From assembly GCA_029262055.1 (NCBI GenBank), contig JAJDAD010000092.1, positions 186,001 through 250,000 of the forward strand: DNA of 64,000 bases, written 5' to 3'. The translations under genes were made by a program, and so were the position numbers. Shown in pieces: positions 53,411 to 58,060 of the stretch. Each line of letters opens with the position of its first letter. The first letter of the stretch is position 1. This DNA comes from Candidatus Zhuqueibacterota bacterium. GTDB taxonomy: Bacteria > Zhuqueibacterota > Zhuqueibacteria > Oceanimicrobiales > Oceanimicrobiaceae. The notes under the pieces are model-generated. The model ran no database searches. It saw nothing but the letters and a program-made list of their open reading frames with translations, and was not told the DNA's origin.

Positions 53411-54340
53411 ATGACCCAAAAGAAATCTGTGCCCATCGCCTTATCCATTCTTCTGGCTCCTGCTTTGCTCTCGCCAGTTTTTTCACAGTCCAAGTGGGAA
53501 GAGACGTTCGATACGACTGAAATACCGGAAGGGTGGCGCACCATCAATAACGATGGCAGCCCCTCGAGCGCGGAAACGTCCGGAACCTTCGATTATGTCG
53601 AACTTGTGGAGTTTGTTGACGACAACGGTGCCGTCGTCGATCAGGTCGGGCCGCAGACGGGAGCGCGGTTCTGGTTTAGCGATTTTGAGAATGCCAATGC
53701 GAGCGGTTTGATCGATGAGTGGCTGATCAGTCCGAAAATCGCGGGCATTGCATCTGGCGATTTTCTGTCGTTTTACGCCGGTGCACCGGATGGCGAGTTC
53801 GATGACTCTCTGCGCGTTTTTGTCTCTACCGCCGACAGCAGTCTCGCCAGCTTCACGAACCAGATCGACTATTTCAAGGTCGCGGGTGCAACGGACGATT
53901 ACGCGGAGTATACTTTCGATCTGTCCGCTTTCGCTGGTCTGGATATTTTTGTCGCGGTCAACTACCACATTGTTGACGGCGGCCCCAACGGCAACCACTC
54001 CGATTCAGTCTGGCTGGACCATTTTTCCGTGAGCAGCACCGTCACGGGAGTAAGCGGGCCGTCGAGCCGGATCGACCGGTTTGCATTGCAGCAGAACTAT
54101 CCCAATCCTTTTAACCCCAGCACGGAGATTGTTTTCCAGTTAGGGTTTCAGACTGAAGTTACTTTGGTCATTTACAATCTCCTGGGACAGGAGGTTGCGG
54201 TTTTGCTGGATGAGAAGCCGTTTGTGGCCGGAGCCCACTCTGTGTCTTTTGAGCCCACTAATCTGGCGGCCGGGGTCTACTACTACAGGTTGACGGCCGG
54301 AGATTTTACGGATTTAAAAAGAATGACTTTGTTGAAGTAA
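53411..54340 (+). CDS. Secreted choice-of-anchor-J-like protein with C-terminal sorting domain (copy 1)
   Basis: A 309-residue exported protein: signal peptide (ALSILLAPALLSPVFSQ), one jelly-roll domain of cleaved-adhesin or choice-of-anchor-J type (WEETFDTTEIPEGWRTIN, DEWLISPKIAGIASGDFLSFYAG, VWLDHFSV), and a FlgD-like sorting domain (ALQQNYPNPFNPSTEIVF, AAGVYYYRLTAG, MTLLK). Such proteins are displayed on the surface or released. The next gene is a paralogue 35 bases away, which suggests tandem duplication. Confidence 0.85.
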   Translation: MTQKKSVPIALSILLAPALLSPVFSQSKWEETFDTTEIPEGWRTINNDGSPSSAETSGTFDYVELVEFVDDNGAVVDQVGPQTGARFWFSDFENANASGLIDEWLISPKIAGIASGDFLSFYAGAPDGEFDDSLRVFVSTADSSLASFTNQIDYFKVAGATDDYAEYTFDLSAFAGLDIFVAVNYHIVDGGPNGNHSDSVWLDHFSVSSTVTGVSGPSSRIDRFALQQNYPNPFNPSTEIVFQLGFQTEVTLVIYNLLGQEVAVLLDEKPFVAGAHSVSFEPTNLAAGVYYYRLTAGDFTDLKRMTLLK

Positions 54341-54375: not shown

Positions 54376-55314
54376 ATGAAGAAAAATATGAAAAGCCCTC
54401 TGTTGGTTATGACAATGGTCCTCTTGCTTGCCGGCAATATCTGGTCCGGAAGCAAGCAAGGTCTGCTTCTACAGGAGTCTTTTGAGGGGGATACCTTTCC
54501 TCCGGCAGGGTGGAGCAAACTCACTGAACTCGGCGGTACGGGTTGGGCGCAAGCTGCCGTGGATTCTTCTCTGGCCGGCTTGATCGGACTGGGGACAGTT
54601 GATACACCCGCCGGCGGTGGTAATGCCGTCGCATACGCTTCATGGGTGACAGGCGATGCAGACCAGAATGCCAACACCACGCAGGCAACCGAGCAGTGGC
54701 TCATTACGCCGCAAATTGCCGGTGTGCAAGCCGGTGATTCACTCAGGTTCTCGATGAAGTTCTTTTCGCAGTTTTTCGACAATCTCGATATCGTCGTGAG
54801 TACCACAAATGCCGACAGTATCGCGTCTTTTGACACGACGTTGCTGCGGATTGTCTTTGACCCGGCTAATCCGCTCAATGACTGGCAGAGGTTCAGCGTT
54901 GACTTGAGCAGCTTTGCCGGTCAAGCTATCTTTATCGGCTTTCGGGAGCATGTGCCCTCAACGGTAAACTCCGGCGATGCCGTGCTTATCGATTTAGTCG
55001 AAGTCGGCTCGCTGGTCACTTCTGTAGACGACCAGACCAGTCAGCCGACGCAGTTTTCTCTCAACCAAAACTTTCCTAATCCGTTTAATCCCAGCACCAA
55101 TATTAGTTTCACGCTGTCGCAGCGTGCCGAAGTCAGTCTGAAGGTCTATAACGTCATTGGGCAGTCTGTGGCGGTGCTGATCGAGCGGCAAATACTGGAG
55201 GCGGGAGCAAGAACGATTCAGTTCAACGCAACTGCTTTGCCCACCGGCGTTTACTACTACAAACTTGAGGCGGGTAATGCTGTTGCGGTGAAACGGATGA
55301 CGCTTGTGCGTTAG
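54376..55314 (+). CDS. Secreted choice-of-anchor-J-like protein with C-terminal sorting domain (copy 2)
   Basis: A 312-residue paralogue of the preceding gene with the same layout: signal peptide (LLVMTMVLLLAGNIWSG), jelly-roll domain (QESFEGDTFPPAGWSKL, EQWLITPQIAGVQAGDSLRFSMK, VLIDLVEV) and sorting domain (SLNQNFPNPFNPSTNISF, TGVYYYKLEAG, MTLVR). The domains are similar but clearly diverged, so the duplication is not recent. It converges with the subtilase-like gene. Confidence 0.85.
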   Translation: MKKNMKSPLLVMTMVLLLAGNIWSGSKQGLLLQESFEGDTFPPAGWSKLTELGGTGWAQAAVDSSLAGLIGLGTVDTPAGGGNAVAYASWVTGDADQNANTTQATEQWLITPQIAGVQAGDSLRFSMKFFSQFFDNLDIVVSTTNADSIASFDTTLLRIVFDPANPLNDWQRFSVDLSSFAGQAIFIGFREHVPSTVNSGDAVLIDLVEVGSLVTSVDDQTSQPTQFSLNQNFPNPFNPSTNISFTLSQRAEVSLKVYNVIGQSVAVLIERQILEAGARTIQFNATALPTGVYYYKLEAGNAVAVKRMTLVR

Positions 55315-55402: not shown

Positions 55403-57481
55403 TTATCTCAGAAGCAGCATTTTGTTGGCTAATCTGGCGTTGCCAACCGTGAGCCGGTAGAGGTAGATCCCGCTTGCGACCGGGCCGCCGTCGTCGTCCC
55501 TGCCGTCCCAGGTCACTTGGTTTCCCCCAATCTGTACTCTTTCGCTGACCAAAGTCCTGATGCGCTGACCGAGCGTGTTGAATATTTCCAGCTCAACCAT
55601 CGCATCCGAATCTGCCTGCGAGATGGCATACACAATTGTGGTCGAGGGATTGAACGGGTTGGGGAAATTTAGACCCAAAGAGAAGTTGACCGGCGTTTGC
55701 CCATCCGGCCTGACACTGGTTATGATAAAGTCGAATGCCTCTTGCGCATTTGCCACACCCGCACCATAGGTGAAGTCATGGCCAGGTGTGCCGCGGTCGT
55801 CTGCGGAGGTTAGCAGGGCGTTTTTTATTTGTGCCGGCGTAAGACTCGGGTGTCCCTCCAACAGCAGTGCCGCAATCGCAGCTATGTGTGGCGCGGCGGC
55901 CGATGTCCCCAGGAACCTGGTACCGGAAGCCGTTGCAATCCCAAACCCACCAGCTCCTGTAATTCTGACCGCGTCTGCGGCTGTTATGTCAGGCTTGGAT
56001 CGCGACTCGGCCGGGAAAAACAGACGGACCGGTCCGAGCGAACTAAAACCCTCAATAGTGTCGAATCCGGGATCGAGAACGCTGATTGCCGCAACAGCGA
56101 TAGACCCTTGTGCAGATTGTTGTCCGGGAATGACGCTGCCGTCACGCACATTGAACTCCTGGACCTGAAACCCATCGCCGGTATAATGCATTTCCAGTAG
56201 GTTTGTTGACGCACTCAAGTTCTGGACAACCACATTCACATTAACGGGTACGGTGCCGGTGTTTTCATATCTTGCCACTTCGATGGCGAACTGTCCGGCG
56301 CCGCCGTCCTGTACATCGTTGCTCAGGGCCAGTATCTGAGTCATTGCCGCATTCATAATGATAAGATCGTAATCGTTGCTCGGATTGAAATATGGCTCGT
56401 TCCACTGCAGCACCACTGTCAGCGTCGTGCCGTCATCGACCTGCATCCTCTGACCGACATCGCTGGCACCTGATGCCGCACGGCCGAAGTCATGCACTGC
56501 TCGCGACGTTCCCTCAATGGTCAGGCTGCCCGCAACGTAGTCCCGCTCATAGTGCACACGTGCCTGATTGCCGACCGCGGTAACATAGGTGACGCCCTGA
56601 GCCACAACCTGATCCACTTTTGTTGCGAGCGCGCCATCCTGAAAAAAGGGTTCACCGAGAAATCCGAGGTCGTCCACAATGACATCGCACCCTTCTCCGC
56701 CGAATGCATCGTTGGCCAGGTAGTCGATGGCATCGAGCATCTCCACGCTCGTCTCCGGTCCGGAGAAAGCCAGATCTGCTCCGGGCGCCAGGTCGTGCAC
56801 GATTTCAAGCATGGCCGTGGCTTCGTCGCCGGAACCCTGCAGGCTGGGATCGATATCGATGGCCGAGGGTAAATCAGCGGTGCTCTGCGCTTGCGAACGA
56901 CTGTCGACGCCGTTGGAAATGACGCCCACTCTGATCCCCGACCCGTCTCTGGAATTACCAATTCTGACCAGGTTAGCTTTCAACAGGGCGTCGCCTTCGG
57001 TGTTGACTGAGCCGCTCATGTTTATGGCGTAGTCTGGCGGGCGAATATGCAGCACCGCGTCAAGCGTGGCGACTTCTTGCAGACGGGTCAATGGAACCCA
57101 GGCCTGGACAAGCCCGGCTTCAGCATTTACAATCTCCAGCTCAACGTTCCGGTCCAGCAATCTTTTAATTGTGGATTGCCCGGTTTCGGAAAGGTAGATA
57201 TAGGTCTGCACCTTGCCGTCGGTGTCAATCCCTCTCGATGAGGCAAGAGTGCCGCTTCTTTTTAGGGCATCACCGGTCAAACCGGTCGACTCGTCTGTTA
57301 AGGCGCGTAAATCGGCGCTTATCTTATGATTGACTTGCGCCGGCCGGGTTGTTTCGTGCAAAATGATTTTTTCGGACTGAGCCTGGGACAGGGCAGTCCC
57401 GGCCGGGAAAAGTGCAAGCAGGTGAAAAATGGCGGCGTAAATTAGACAGCTGCTGGGTCGGGTGGATTGAGTCTGTGACAT
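55403..57481 (-). CDS. Subtilase/sedolisin-like secreted protein with altered catalytic residues
   Basis: A 692-residue exported protein: signal peptide (IFHLLALFPAGTALSQAQ), a prodomain-like segment (about 84-156, ending VQAWV and RPPDYA), an S8/S53-type domain (about 180-570) and a sorting domain (NFPNPFNPSTTIVY, SGIYLYRLTVG, MLLLR). The nucleophile GTSAAAPH is intact (S527). The first motif reads VGVISNGVD with N190 where relatives have Asp, and the usual HGT motif is replaced by GDEATAMLEIVHDLAPGA (E220), which resembles the Glu region of sedolisins. It may be a weak or inactive protease, or use a non-classical triad. An orphan homologue of its prodomain is encoded upstream. Confidence 0.82.
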   Translation of the reverse strand: MSQTQSTRPSSCLIYAAIFHLLALFPAGTALSQAQSEKIILHETTRPAQVNHKISADLRALTDESTGLTGDALKRSGTLASSRGIDTDGKVQTYIYLSETGQSTIKRLLDRNVELEIVNAEAGLVQAWVPLTRLQEVATLDAVLHIRPPDYAINMSGSVNTEGDALLKANLVRIGNSRDGSGIRVGVISNGVDSRSQAQSTADLPSAIDIDPSLQGSGDEATAMLEIVHDLAPGADLAFSGPETSVEMLDAIDYLANDAFGGEGCDVIVDDLGFLGEPFFQDGALATKVDQVVAQGVTYVTAVGNQARVHYERDYVAGSLTIEGTSRAVHDFGRAASGASDVGQRMQVDDGTTLTVVLQWNEPYFNPSNDYDLIIMNAAMTQILALSNDVQDGGAGQFAIEVARYENTGTVPVNVNVVVQNLSASTNLLEMHYTGDGFQVQEFNVRDGSVIPGQQSAQGSIAVAAISVLDPGFDTIEGFSSLGPVRLFFPAESRSKPDITAADAVRITGAGGFGIATASGTRFLGTSAAAPHIAAIAALLLEGHPSLTPAQIKNALLTSADDRGTPGHDFTYGAGVANAQEAFDFIITSVRPDGQTPVNFSLGLNFPNPFNPSTTIVYAISQADSDAMVELEIFNTLGQRIRTLVSERVQIGGNQVTWDGRDDDGGPVASGIYLYRLTVGNARLANKMLLLR

Positions 57482-57542
57482 GGTTGATCCTTTTCCGGGT
57501 TACTGGTTGAGTCCGTTCTTTAAGATACCACGAAGATAGGCG

Positions 57543-57564
57543 GTCTATTTCAAGGAAAATAGAC
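57543..57564. repeat. Stem-loop upstream of the subtilase-like gene
   Basis: GTCTATTT (57543-57550) and AAATAGAC (57557-57564) form a perfect 8-pair stem with a six-base loop, 62 bases upstream of the subtilase start and 32 bases after the orphan prodomain stop. It could be an operator, a processing site or a weak terminator. Confidence 0.4.
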
Positions 57565-57595
57565 GAAGTCGTAATTGCTCCAATTCTTATGCCAA

Positions 57596-58060
57596 TCAAC
57601 GCCTAAGGGTTTTGGCGTAATCGGGGGAAGAAATTCTCAGGACGGTTGCCCACTGTTCCAATGCTGCTATGGCCTGGTATCGCACCCAAGCCTGCACCAC
57701 TTTCATCTGCTTATCTTCTGTTTCTATTCTGACACCACGGTTCCGTAATTCCACCAGCGTCTCCGCCGTGACTTGCTCCAGATGGATGTAACACTGTATT
57801 TGACCCGCGTCATTGACCTTCACCTGAGATGTGGAAAAAGTACTGAGCGGTTTGCGGCGGCCTTGCGGCGACTTTTGATATTTCTCCAACTGAGCAACCA
57901 CAAGCTGAATGGCATCTGTGACCTTTGCGCTGGTTTGCGGGCGCAGCTTGGCATTTTGCCGGACGTTGGCCTCATCATCTGAAGCGCAATTCAGGCAGAC
58001 GGAGAGCATGAGGCAGGTAATCAAAGTGGACGTTAAAGGTCGGATTGCAGGTGTCATCAT
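57596..58060 (-). CDS. Stand-alone prodomain-like exported protein
   Basis: A 154-residue protein with an N-terminal hydrophobic export signal (LTSTLITCLMLSVCLNC); Cys residues there could allow lipidation but no perfect lipobox is present. Its C-terminal half (about 78-154) is clearly related to the N-terminal region of the adjacent subtilase-like protein: GQIQCYIHL matches GKVQTYIYL, then RNRGVRIE matches LDRNVELE, VVQAWV matches LVQAWV, and ISSPDYA matches RPPDYA. In subtilases such segments act as propeptide chaperones and inhibitors, so this may be a free inhibitor or folding factor for the neighbour. The gap between them is 114 bases, same strand. Confidence 0.75.
   Translation of the reverse strand: MMTPAIRPLTSTLITCLMLSVCLNCASDDEANVRQNAKLRPQTSAKVTDAIQLVVAQLEKYQKSPQGRRKPLSTFSTSQVKVNDAGQIQCYIHLEQVTAETLVELRNRGVRIETEDKQMKVVQAWVRYQAIAALEQWATVLRISSPDYAKTLRR

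Follow-up and report, generated by a model that had tools for sequence, protein, structure and literature searches.

Stand-alone proteins resembling subtilase propeptides are known in eukaryotes, and protease inhibitors encoded beside their targets are known in bacteria (Spi, potempins). The eukaryotic group, classified in family I9, includes SUB1-ProM of Plasmodium, the yeast proteinase B inhibitor, POIA1, SPI-1 and TgMIC5. SUB1-ProM is encoded beside subtilase genes and inhibits SUB1, and the cleaved propeptide of subtilisin is itself a tightly bound inhibitor (PMC6993865). Among bacteria, Spi is a propeptide analogue encoded beside SpeB, the streptococcal secreted protease which it inhibits, while the inhibitor genes of the staphostatins and of Bacteroides Bfi are adjacent to, and co-transcribed with, those of secreted proteases; two of the three Bfi proteins are predicted lipoproteins (PMC2873492). 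In Tannerella forsythia, the genes of the potempins, which are small lipoprotein inhibitors, stand directly before the genes of the KLIKK secreted proteases (PMC7296668).

Here we describe a pair of genes in a stretch of 64,000 nucleotides from a genome of Candidatus Zhuqueibacterota (the window), in which a small orphan gene directly precedes the gene of a secreted subtilase. Like the SUB1-ProM group, the orphan is a free protein with a subtilisin-propeptide fold, in its case a predicted one. However, that group is eukaryotic, whereas the orphan is bacterial, has no match to Pfam Inhibitor_I9 and is an inhibitor by inference. It also differs from the group in being detectably homologous to its neighbour's own prodomain, and in having relatives that probably arose repeatedly and carry a lipobox in most cases. 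The target of Spi is a C10 cysteine protease, while the presumed target of the orphan is a serine enzyme of the S8 fold; staphostatins and Bfi are lipocalin-like inhibitors of cysteine proteases, and their fold is unrelated to that of the orphan. The KLIKK proteases are cargo of the type IX secretion system (T9SS), and, as with the potempins, the window gene directly precedes that of a protease with a T9SS-type tail. In contrast to the potempins, which are lipoproteins and, to our knowledge, not prodomain copies, the window orphan has no canonical lipobox. Since the window copy has neither the Inhibitor_I9 profile nor the lipobox, we did not file it in the I9 or potempin families. In the open-access literature we found no prokaryotic stand-alone subtilase propeptide inhibitor, nor any description of prokaryotic subtilase prodomains that are free, anchored and repeatedly born. 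This argues only weakly for novelty, as subscription papers lay mostly outside the scope of the search.

The orphan gene and its neighbour

The orphan ORF starts with ATG and encodes a signal sequence, a short linker, the prodomain and little more: after the prodomain core there are four residues and then the stop (tail ...PDYAKTLRR). The coordinates of both genes and of their parts are collected in Table 1.

Table 1. Features of the orphan and the adjacent subtilase (positions in the window)
Feature	Position	Strand	Basis or conservation
Orphan stand-alone prodomain protein, 154 aa	57596..58060	-	ORF, homology to neighbour, AlphaFold2 fold
Orphan N-terminal signal sequence, aa 1-25 (...LSVCLNC/ASDD)	57986..58060	-	Sequence, regex test
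Orphan prodomain core, about aa 43-150	57611..57934	-	Family HMM match, tail comparison
Intergenic gap, 114 nt, orphan stop to subtilase start	57482..57595	.	
Adjacent secreted subtilase, 692 aa, signal peptide and C-terminal sorting tail	55403..57481	-	
Cis prodomain of the subtilase, about aa 50-156	57014..57334	-	
Catalytic domain, with beta-rich insert between Asn and Ser motifs	55712..57013	-	
Ser189-Asn190, site of canonical Asp (D-x-G)	56912..56917	-	
Glu220, position of subtilisin catalytic His	56822..56824	-	75/76 Glu among prodomain-selected relatives
Asn305, oxyanion-hole Asn	56567..56569	-	76/76
Ser527, catalytic Ser of GTSAAAPH	55901..55903	-	69/69 with a residue at the position
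C-terminal T9SS type A sorting domain / FlgD-like Ig fold	55427..55666	-	TIGR04183

Both genes lie on the minus strand, and the orphan comes first. Because they are on the same strand and 114 nt apart, with four in-frame stops between them and no terminator-like site on the coding (minus) strand of the gap, they are two genes, likely of one transcription unit. A read-through or frameshift product of a single gene was ruled out by the same four stops.

An earlier note on this DNA had aligned the C-terminal half of the orphan with the N-terminal region of the subtilase, pointing to shared QAWV, PDYA and Y-I-x-L patterns. BLASTP bore this out: residues 82-149 of the orphan align with residues 85-152 of the subtilase (37%, 26/71 identical, E=2e-11), and QAWV, PDYA and the Q-x-Y-I-x-L strand all lie inside the alignment. 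By profile alignment the similarity to the cis prodomain reaches farther N-terminal than was first seen, covering orphan residues 43-150 or so, from the conserved K-[IVL]-x-x helix up to P-x-Y. Wherever all 13 aligned prodomains share a residue (K, Y, Q, W, V, P, Y), the orphan has it too, and the family prodomain HMM matches its prodomain end to end (i-E 6.6e-19). As a query against the whole 5.7-Mb genome, the orphan gave two matches, to itself (7.3e-98) and to the adjacent subtilase (9.1e-7), and no third gene with a detectable copy of the domain was found across this genome. The orphan had no profile match to Pfam families, Inhibitor_I9 included; for that family (PF05922) neither the orphan nor any of the 13 prodomains gave a match at E<=1. 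No relatives of the orphan were found in viral contigs.

The AlphaFold2 model of the orphan (50 aligned sequences, pLDDT 89.7) has the topology strand-helix-strand-strand-helix-strand. Its top PDB matches are the subtilisin propeptides 3cnq_P (TM 0.81 by target), 1scj_B and 1spb_P, with E-values of 0.02-0.06, and in VIA-align the Z scores were 9.4 with ProN-Tk-SP, 7-8 with subtilisin propeptides and 6.1 with the free propeptide-like inhibitor POIA1. Since these E-values are middling even at their best (0.02), and Z of 7-9 alone could reflect a common arrangement, the identification is carried by the sequence homology to the cis prodomain. The suggestion of the earlier note that the orphan is a free prodomain is well supported, by the predicted fold, by the family profile and by an end at the pro/mature boundary, and the more specific conclusion, that it is a free copy of the adjacent subtilase's own prodomain, is probable.

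The neighbour has a subtilisin fold (PF00082, 67 bits; VIA Z 34-37 to subtilisins). Residue 132 of its model, where the aa number is the model number plus 25, is structurally equivalent to subtilisin residue 1, which places the pro/mature junction between aa 156 and 157, so that the mature enzyme begins at the Gly of the conserved motif G-S-V-x-T-E-G-D. The beta-rich insert occupies about residues 285-415 of the model of window 55700-57406. The TIGR04183 score of the protein is 27.7 bits, against an NCBIfam cut-off of 23; the subtilase of a genome from another KSB1 genus (G004) is likewise above the cut-off, and a SprA translocon homologue is encoded in the window genome. Two small secreted proteins with Por_Secre_tail domains lie beside the subtilase (53411-54340, which has a weak cleaved-adhesin match as well, and 54376-55314), and a close relative, G002, has similar neighbours.

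Distribution, ends and origin of the free copies

How widely is the pairing of free prodomain and subtilase conserved? Our survey comprised 80 named loci and scans of whole genomes. The alignment scan of genome contigs detected 398 subtilase relatives, 80 of which were kept, while a single-protein scan of the contigs found nothing. Within the GTDB family of the window genome, which its named relatives place in candidate division KSB1, a close subtilase is present in three genomes: the window genome, G004 and G002. The free copy lies directly upstream of it in the first two, and both copies are intact, in different genera, at about 26-30% identity. In G002 the subtilase keeps the same synteny, including a divergent gene that resembles the window's Omp85 gene, without a free copy; the free copy is therefore not essential.

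Beyond the window, eight genomes have adjacent free copies: one from the other KSB1 genus, one of Methanoregula and the rest from three bacterial lineages that do not belong to KSB1. A same-strand copy directly upstream of the subtilase was found in G004, in G147 (deposited as Deltaproteobacteria Ww513), in G148 and its phylum-mates G571, G581 and G582 (Rokubacteria/Methylomirabilota), and in G1435, which shares its phylum with the Dadabacteria genome G153. In Methanoregula (G149) the free copy adjoins the subtilase in divergent orientation. Free copies away from a protease were detected in three archaea, G914, G840 and G820, each of which has a subtilase of the family elsewhere in the genome but none nearby; the flanks covered reach out to about 8 kb as far as the contig extends, and for G914 to about 1 kb on one side. 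These three copies end in an apparent C-terminal transmembrane segment. The archaeal stand-alone prodomain ORFs with an apparent anchor are L208:831-1508(+), L209:7801-8472(-) and L210:7674-8315(+).

Altogether, nine of the 12 intact free copies, in nine genomes, adjoin a subtilase gene. The earlier note had held that its idea would fail if orphan homologues lay mainly away from subtilase genes; we saw the opposite, nine adjacent against three archaeal copies that are not. As for SUB1-ProM, then, the free prodomain is a separate, conserved gene adjoining a subtilase gene. The arrangement is nevertheless uncommon, since no further free copies were found in the sampled genomes from the phyla of G147 (395), G151 (251) and G152 (246). 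L118 and the partial frame of L058 were left out of the count of intact copies, and L213 (G1465) was rejected as an orphan, as its frame runs to the contig end and represents a truncated protease.

Some other arrangements were noted in the survey. In G579 a copy at the place of the free prodomain (C159:8459-8632, L156) is interrupted by TAG, an apparent decay. In the archaeal genome G792, a protease ORF of 952 aa carries two prodomains in tandem in cis (L214:4518-7373(-)), possibly an alternative outcome of the same type of duplication, and L068:2740-6779(+) has two family subtilases in tandem.

Tails and junctions were compared by motif counting. Between the Tyr of P-x-Y and the mature Gly, the enzymes of the eight same-strand pairs all have exactly 5 residues, and the eight same-strand bacterial free copies end 3, 4, 6, 6, 7, 8, 8 and 8 residues past that Tyr. 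Measured against the inferred pro/mature junction, 8/8 copies thus end between -2 and +3, and because of this the free copies look like the cleaved product. A lipobox is present in seven of the nine adjacent free copies. The exceptions are G148, which has none, and the window copy, where the Cys is plausibly placed but has Asn at -1 (LNC/A) and so fails both strict and PROSITE-like lipobox patterns. Three closely related free copies show purifying selection, with dN/dS of 0.30-0.47.

In the prodomain trees, the copies of G148 and G1435 are each sister to the prodomain of the adjoining protease (97/88 and 98/91), that of G147 groups within its own lineage, and three Methylomirabilota copies cluster together, near the prodomains of their neighbours. 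The branch of the window copy is long, and the trees assign it no precise source. Given the well-supported branches, the free state must have changed at least five times, and a single-change history appeared in no bootstrap tree, so free copies were probably born more than once. The simplest reading of these trees is that local duplication produced them repeatedly; a possible alternative is one old pair followed by losses and gene conversion.

Proposed function and alternative readings

On balance, the orphan is probably an envelope-tethered free prodomain that inhibits its cognate secreted protease. The basis in hand is homology, predicted fold, boundary, co-localisation, probable repeated origin and anchoring signals in most relatives, from which we infer binding, inhibition and self-protection by the orphan. 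The cis prodomain would fold the enzyme and then be cut off. The orphan would be exported by its Sec-type signal, as a lipoprotein in most relatives, and would stay at the cell envelope. There it could re-occupy the active-site face in the manner of the cleaved cis prodomain, and the orphan's C-terminal tail, which stops at the pro/mature junction, would make it a product-like inhibitor of the protease. Being separate and anchored, the free copy could go on silencing the protease, in or on the cell that makes it, once the cis prodomain is removed, and it would be left behind when the protease leaves the cell. Since similar free copies elsewhere are usually predicted to be membrane-attached, the gene probably makes an inhibitor that guards the producing cell against the protease it secretes.

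The main rival, which we disfavour as unlikely, sees in the free prodomain a chaperone that is tethered to the membrane and helps the exported protease to fold in trans, much like the lipase-specific foldases. The prodomains of subtilisins do aid folding of the catalytic domain (PMC6993865), and the gene of the free copy precedes that of the protease, its product being apparently envelope-anchored in most relatives. However, the cis prodomain is complete and shows no measurable decay in all paired proteases, which would make a foldase in trans redundant, and the close relative G002 manages without the free copy. With the cis prodomain HMM, paired proteases had a median of 70.5 bits and unpaired ones 84.2 (p=0.25, n=8 vs 106); as cis prodomains beside free copies are not significantly weaker, the protease has not passed on the folding job. 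Repeated membrane anchoring together with the retained, undecayed cis prodomain therefore favours an inhibitor or immunity protein over a chaperone in trans.

Could the free prodomain act on something other than its neighbour? Regulation of, for example, other extracellular S8 proteases, or a role as surface scaffold or receptor, would agree with the position of the three archaeal copies, and known propeptides inhibit heterologous subtilisins in some instances (PMC6993865). This seems quite improbable to us, given that most intact copies adjoin a protease, that several are sister to, or grouped with, the prodomain of their own neighbour, and that the window genome is without any other detectable copy of the domain.

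We give equally little credence to a neighbour that is a pseudoprotease, the pair then being a non-proteolytic sensor or complex. The Asp-His-Ser triad is incomplete in the neighbour: compared with L145, a canonical relative within the family (VIDSG...IHGT), Asp32 is replaced by Ser and His64 by Glu, and Ser is kept. In addition, the window protein has Ser189-Asn190 where most of the family has Ser-Asp, so that Asn190 stands in place of the usual Asp. Proteolytic activity is therefore only putative. The closest overall Foldseek matches of the subtilase model are led by Clostridium CspB/CspA/CspC, and CspA and CspC of Clostridioides are pseudoproteases. The 80 genome-contig loci had been chosen with patterns containing the active-site Glu, and for this reason active-site conservation was counted again in 76 relatives chosen by the prodomain only. 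There, Glu220, Ser527 and Asn305 are near-invariant (Table 1), which looks like an active Ser-Glu site and means that there is probably an activity to restrain. The neighbour shares with S53 sedolisins the Glu at the His position and the catalytic Ser (E220, S527). Sedolisins have Asp four residues past this Glu and Asp in the oxyanion hole, whereas in the neighbour E220+4 is Met and the oxyanion residue is Asn305. Catalysis by Ser-Glu-Asp is used by serine-carboxyl proteinases (PMC11593635). Residue conservation thus favours an active Ser-Glu enzyme over a pseudoprotease. Members of the S8-fold family with His replaced by Glu and Asp by Ser occur in many bacterial phyla and in methanogens (family alignment A4).

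Very unlikely, finally, is a by-product of partial tandem duplication of the protease gene, decaying and without selected function: free copies do arise repeatedly beside the protease gene, the G579 copy is interrupted by a stop and the Methanospirillum copy in L118 resembles a recent partial duplicate, but the window and G004 copies are intact in different genera, three related copies are under purifying selection, and random truncation predicts neither ends so close to the junction in 8/8 copies nor a lipobox in most.

We return to the reading of the orphan as an inhibitor and, with more reserve, extend it. Copying a secreted protease's prodomain, with an end at the pro/mature junction, may have given rise to free, envelope-anchored immunity proteins several times over, independently in bacteria and in archaea; the window pair could be an instance of this in an S8-fold Ser-Glu family. 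Cells that secrete proteases must survive their own proteases. If true, this would be a simple, reused route to immunity, in which the prodomain is duplicated, ended at the processing site and given a membrane anchor. It would provide a prokaryotic counterpart of the stand-alone propeptide inhibitors of yeast, fungi, plants and apicomplexans, and would offer natural pairs of protease and inhibitor from a subtilase family that is under-studied and whose Ser-Glu active site is unusual.
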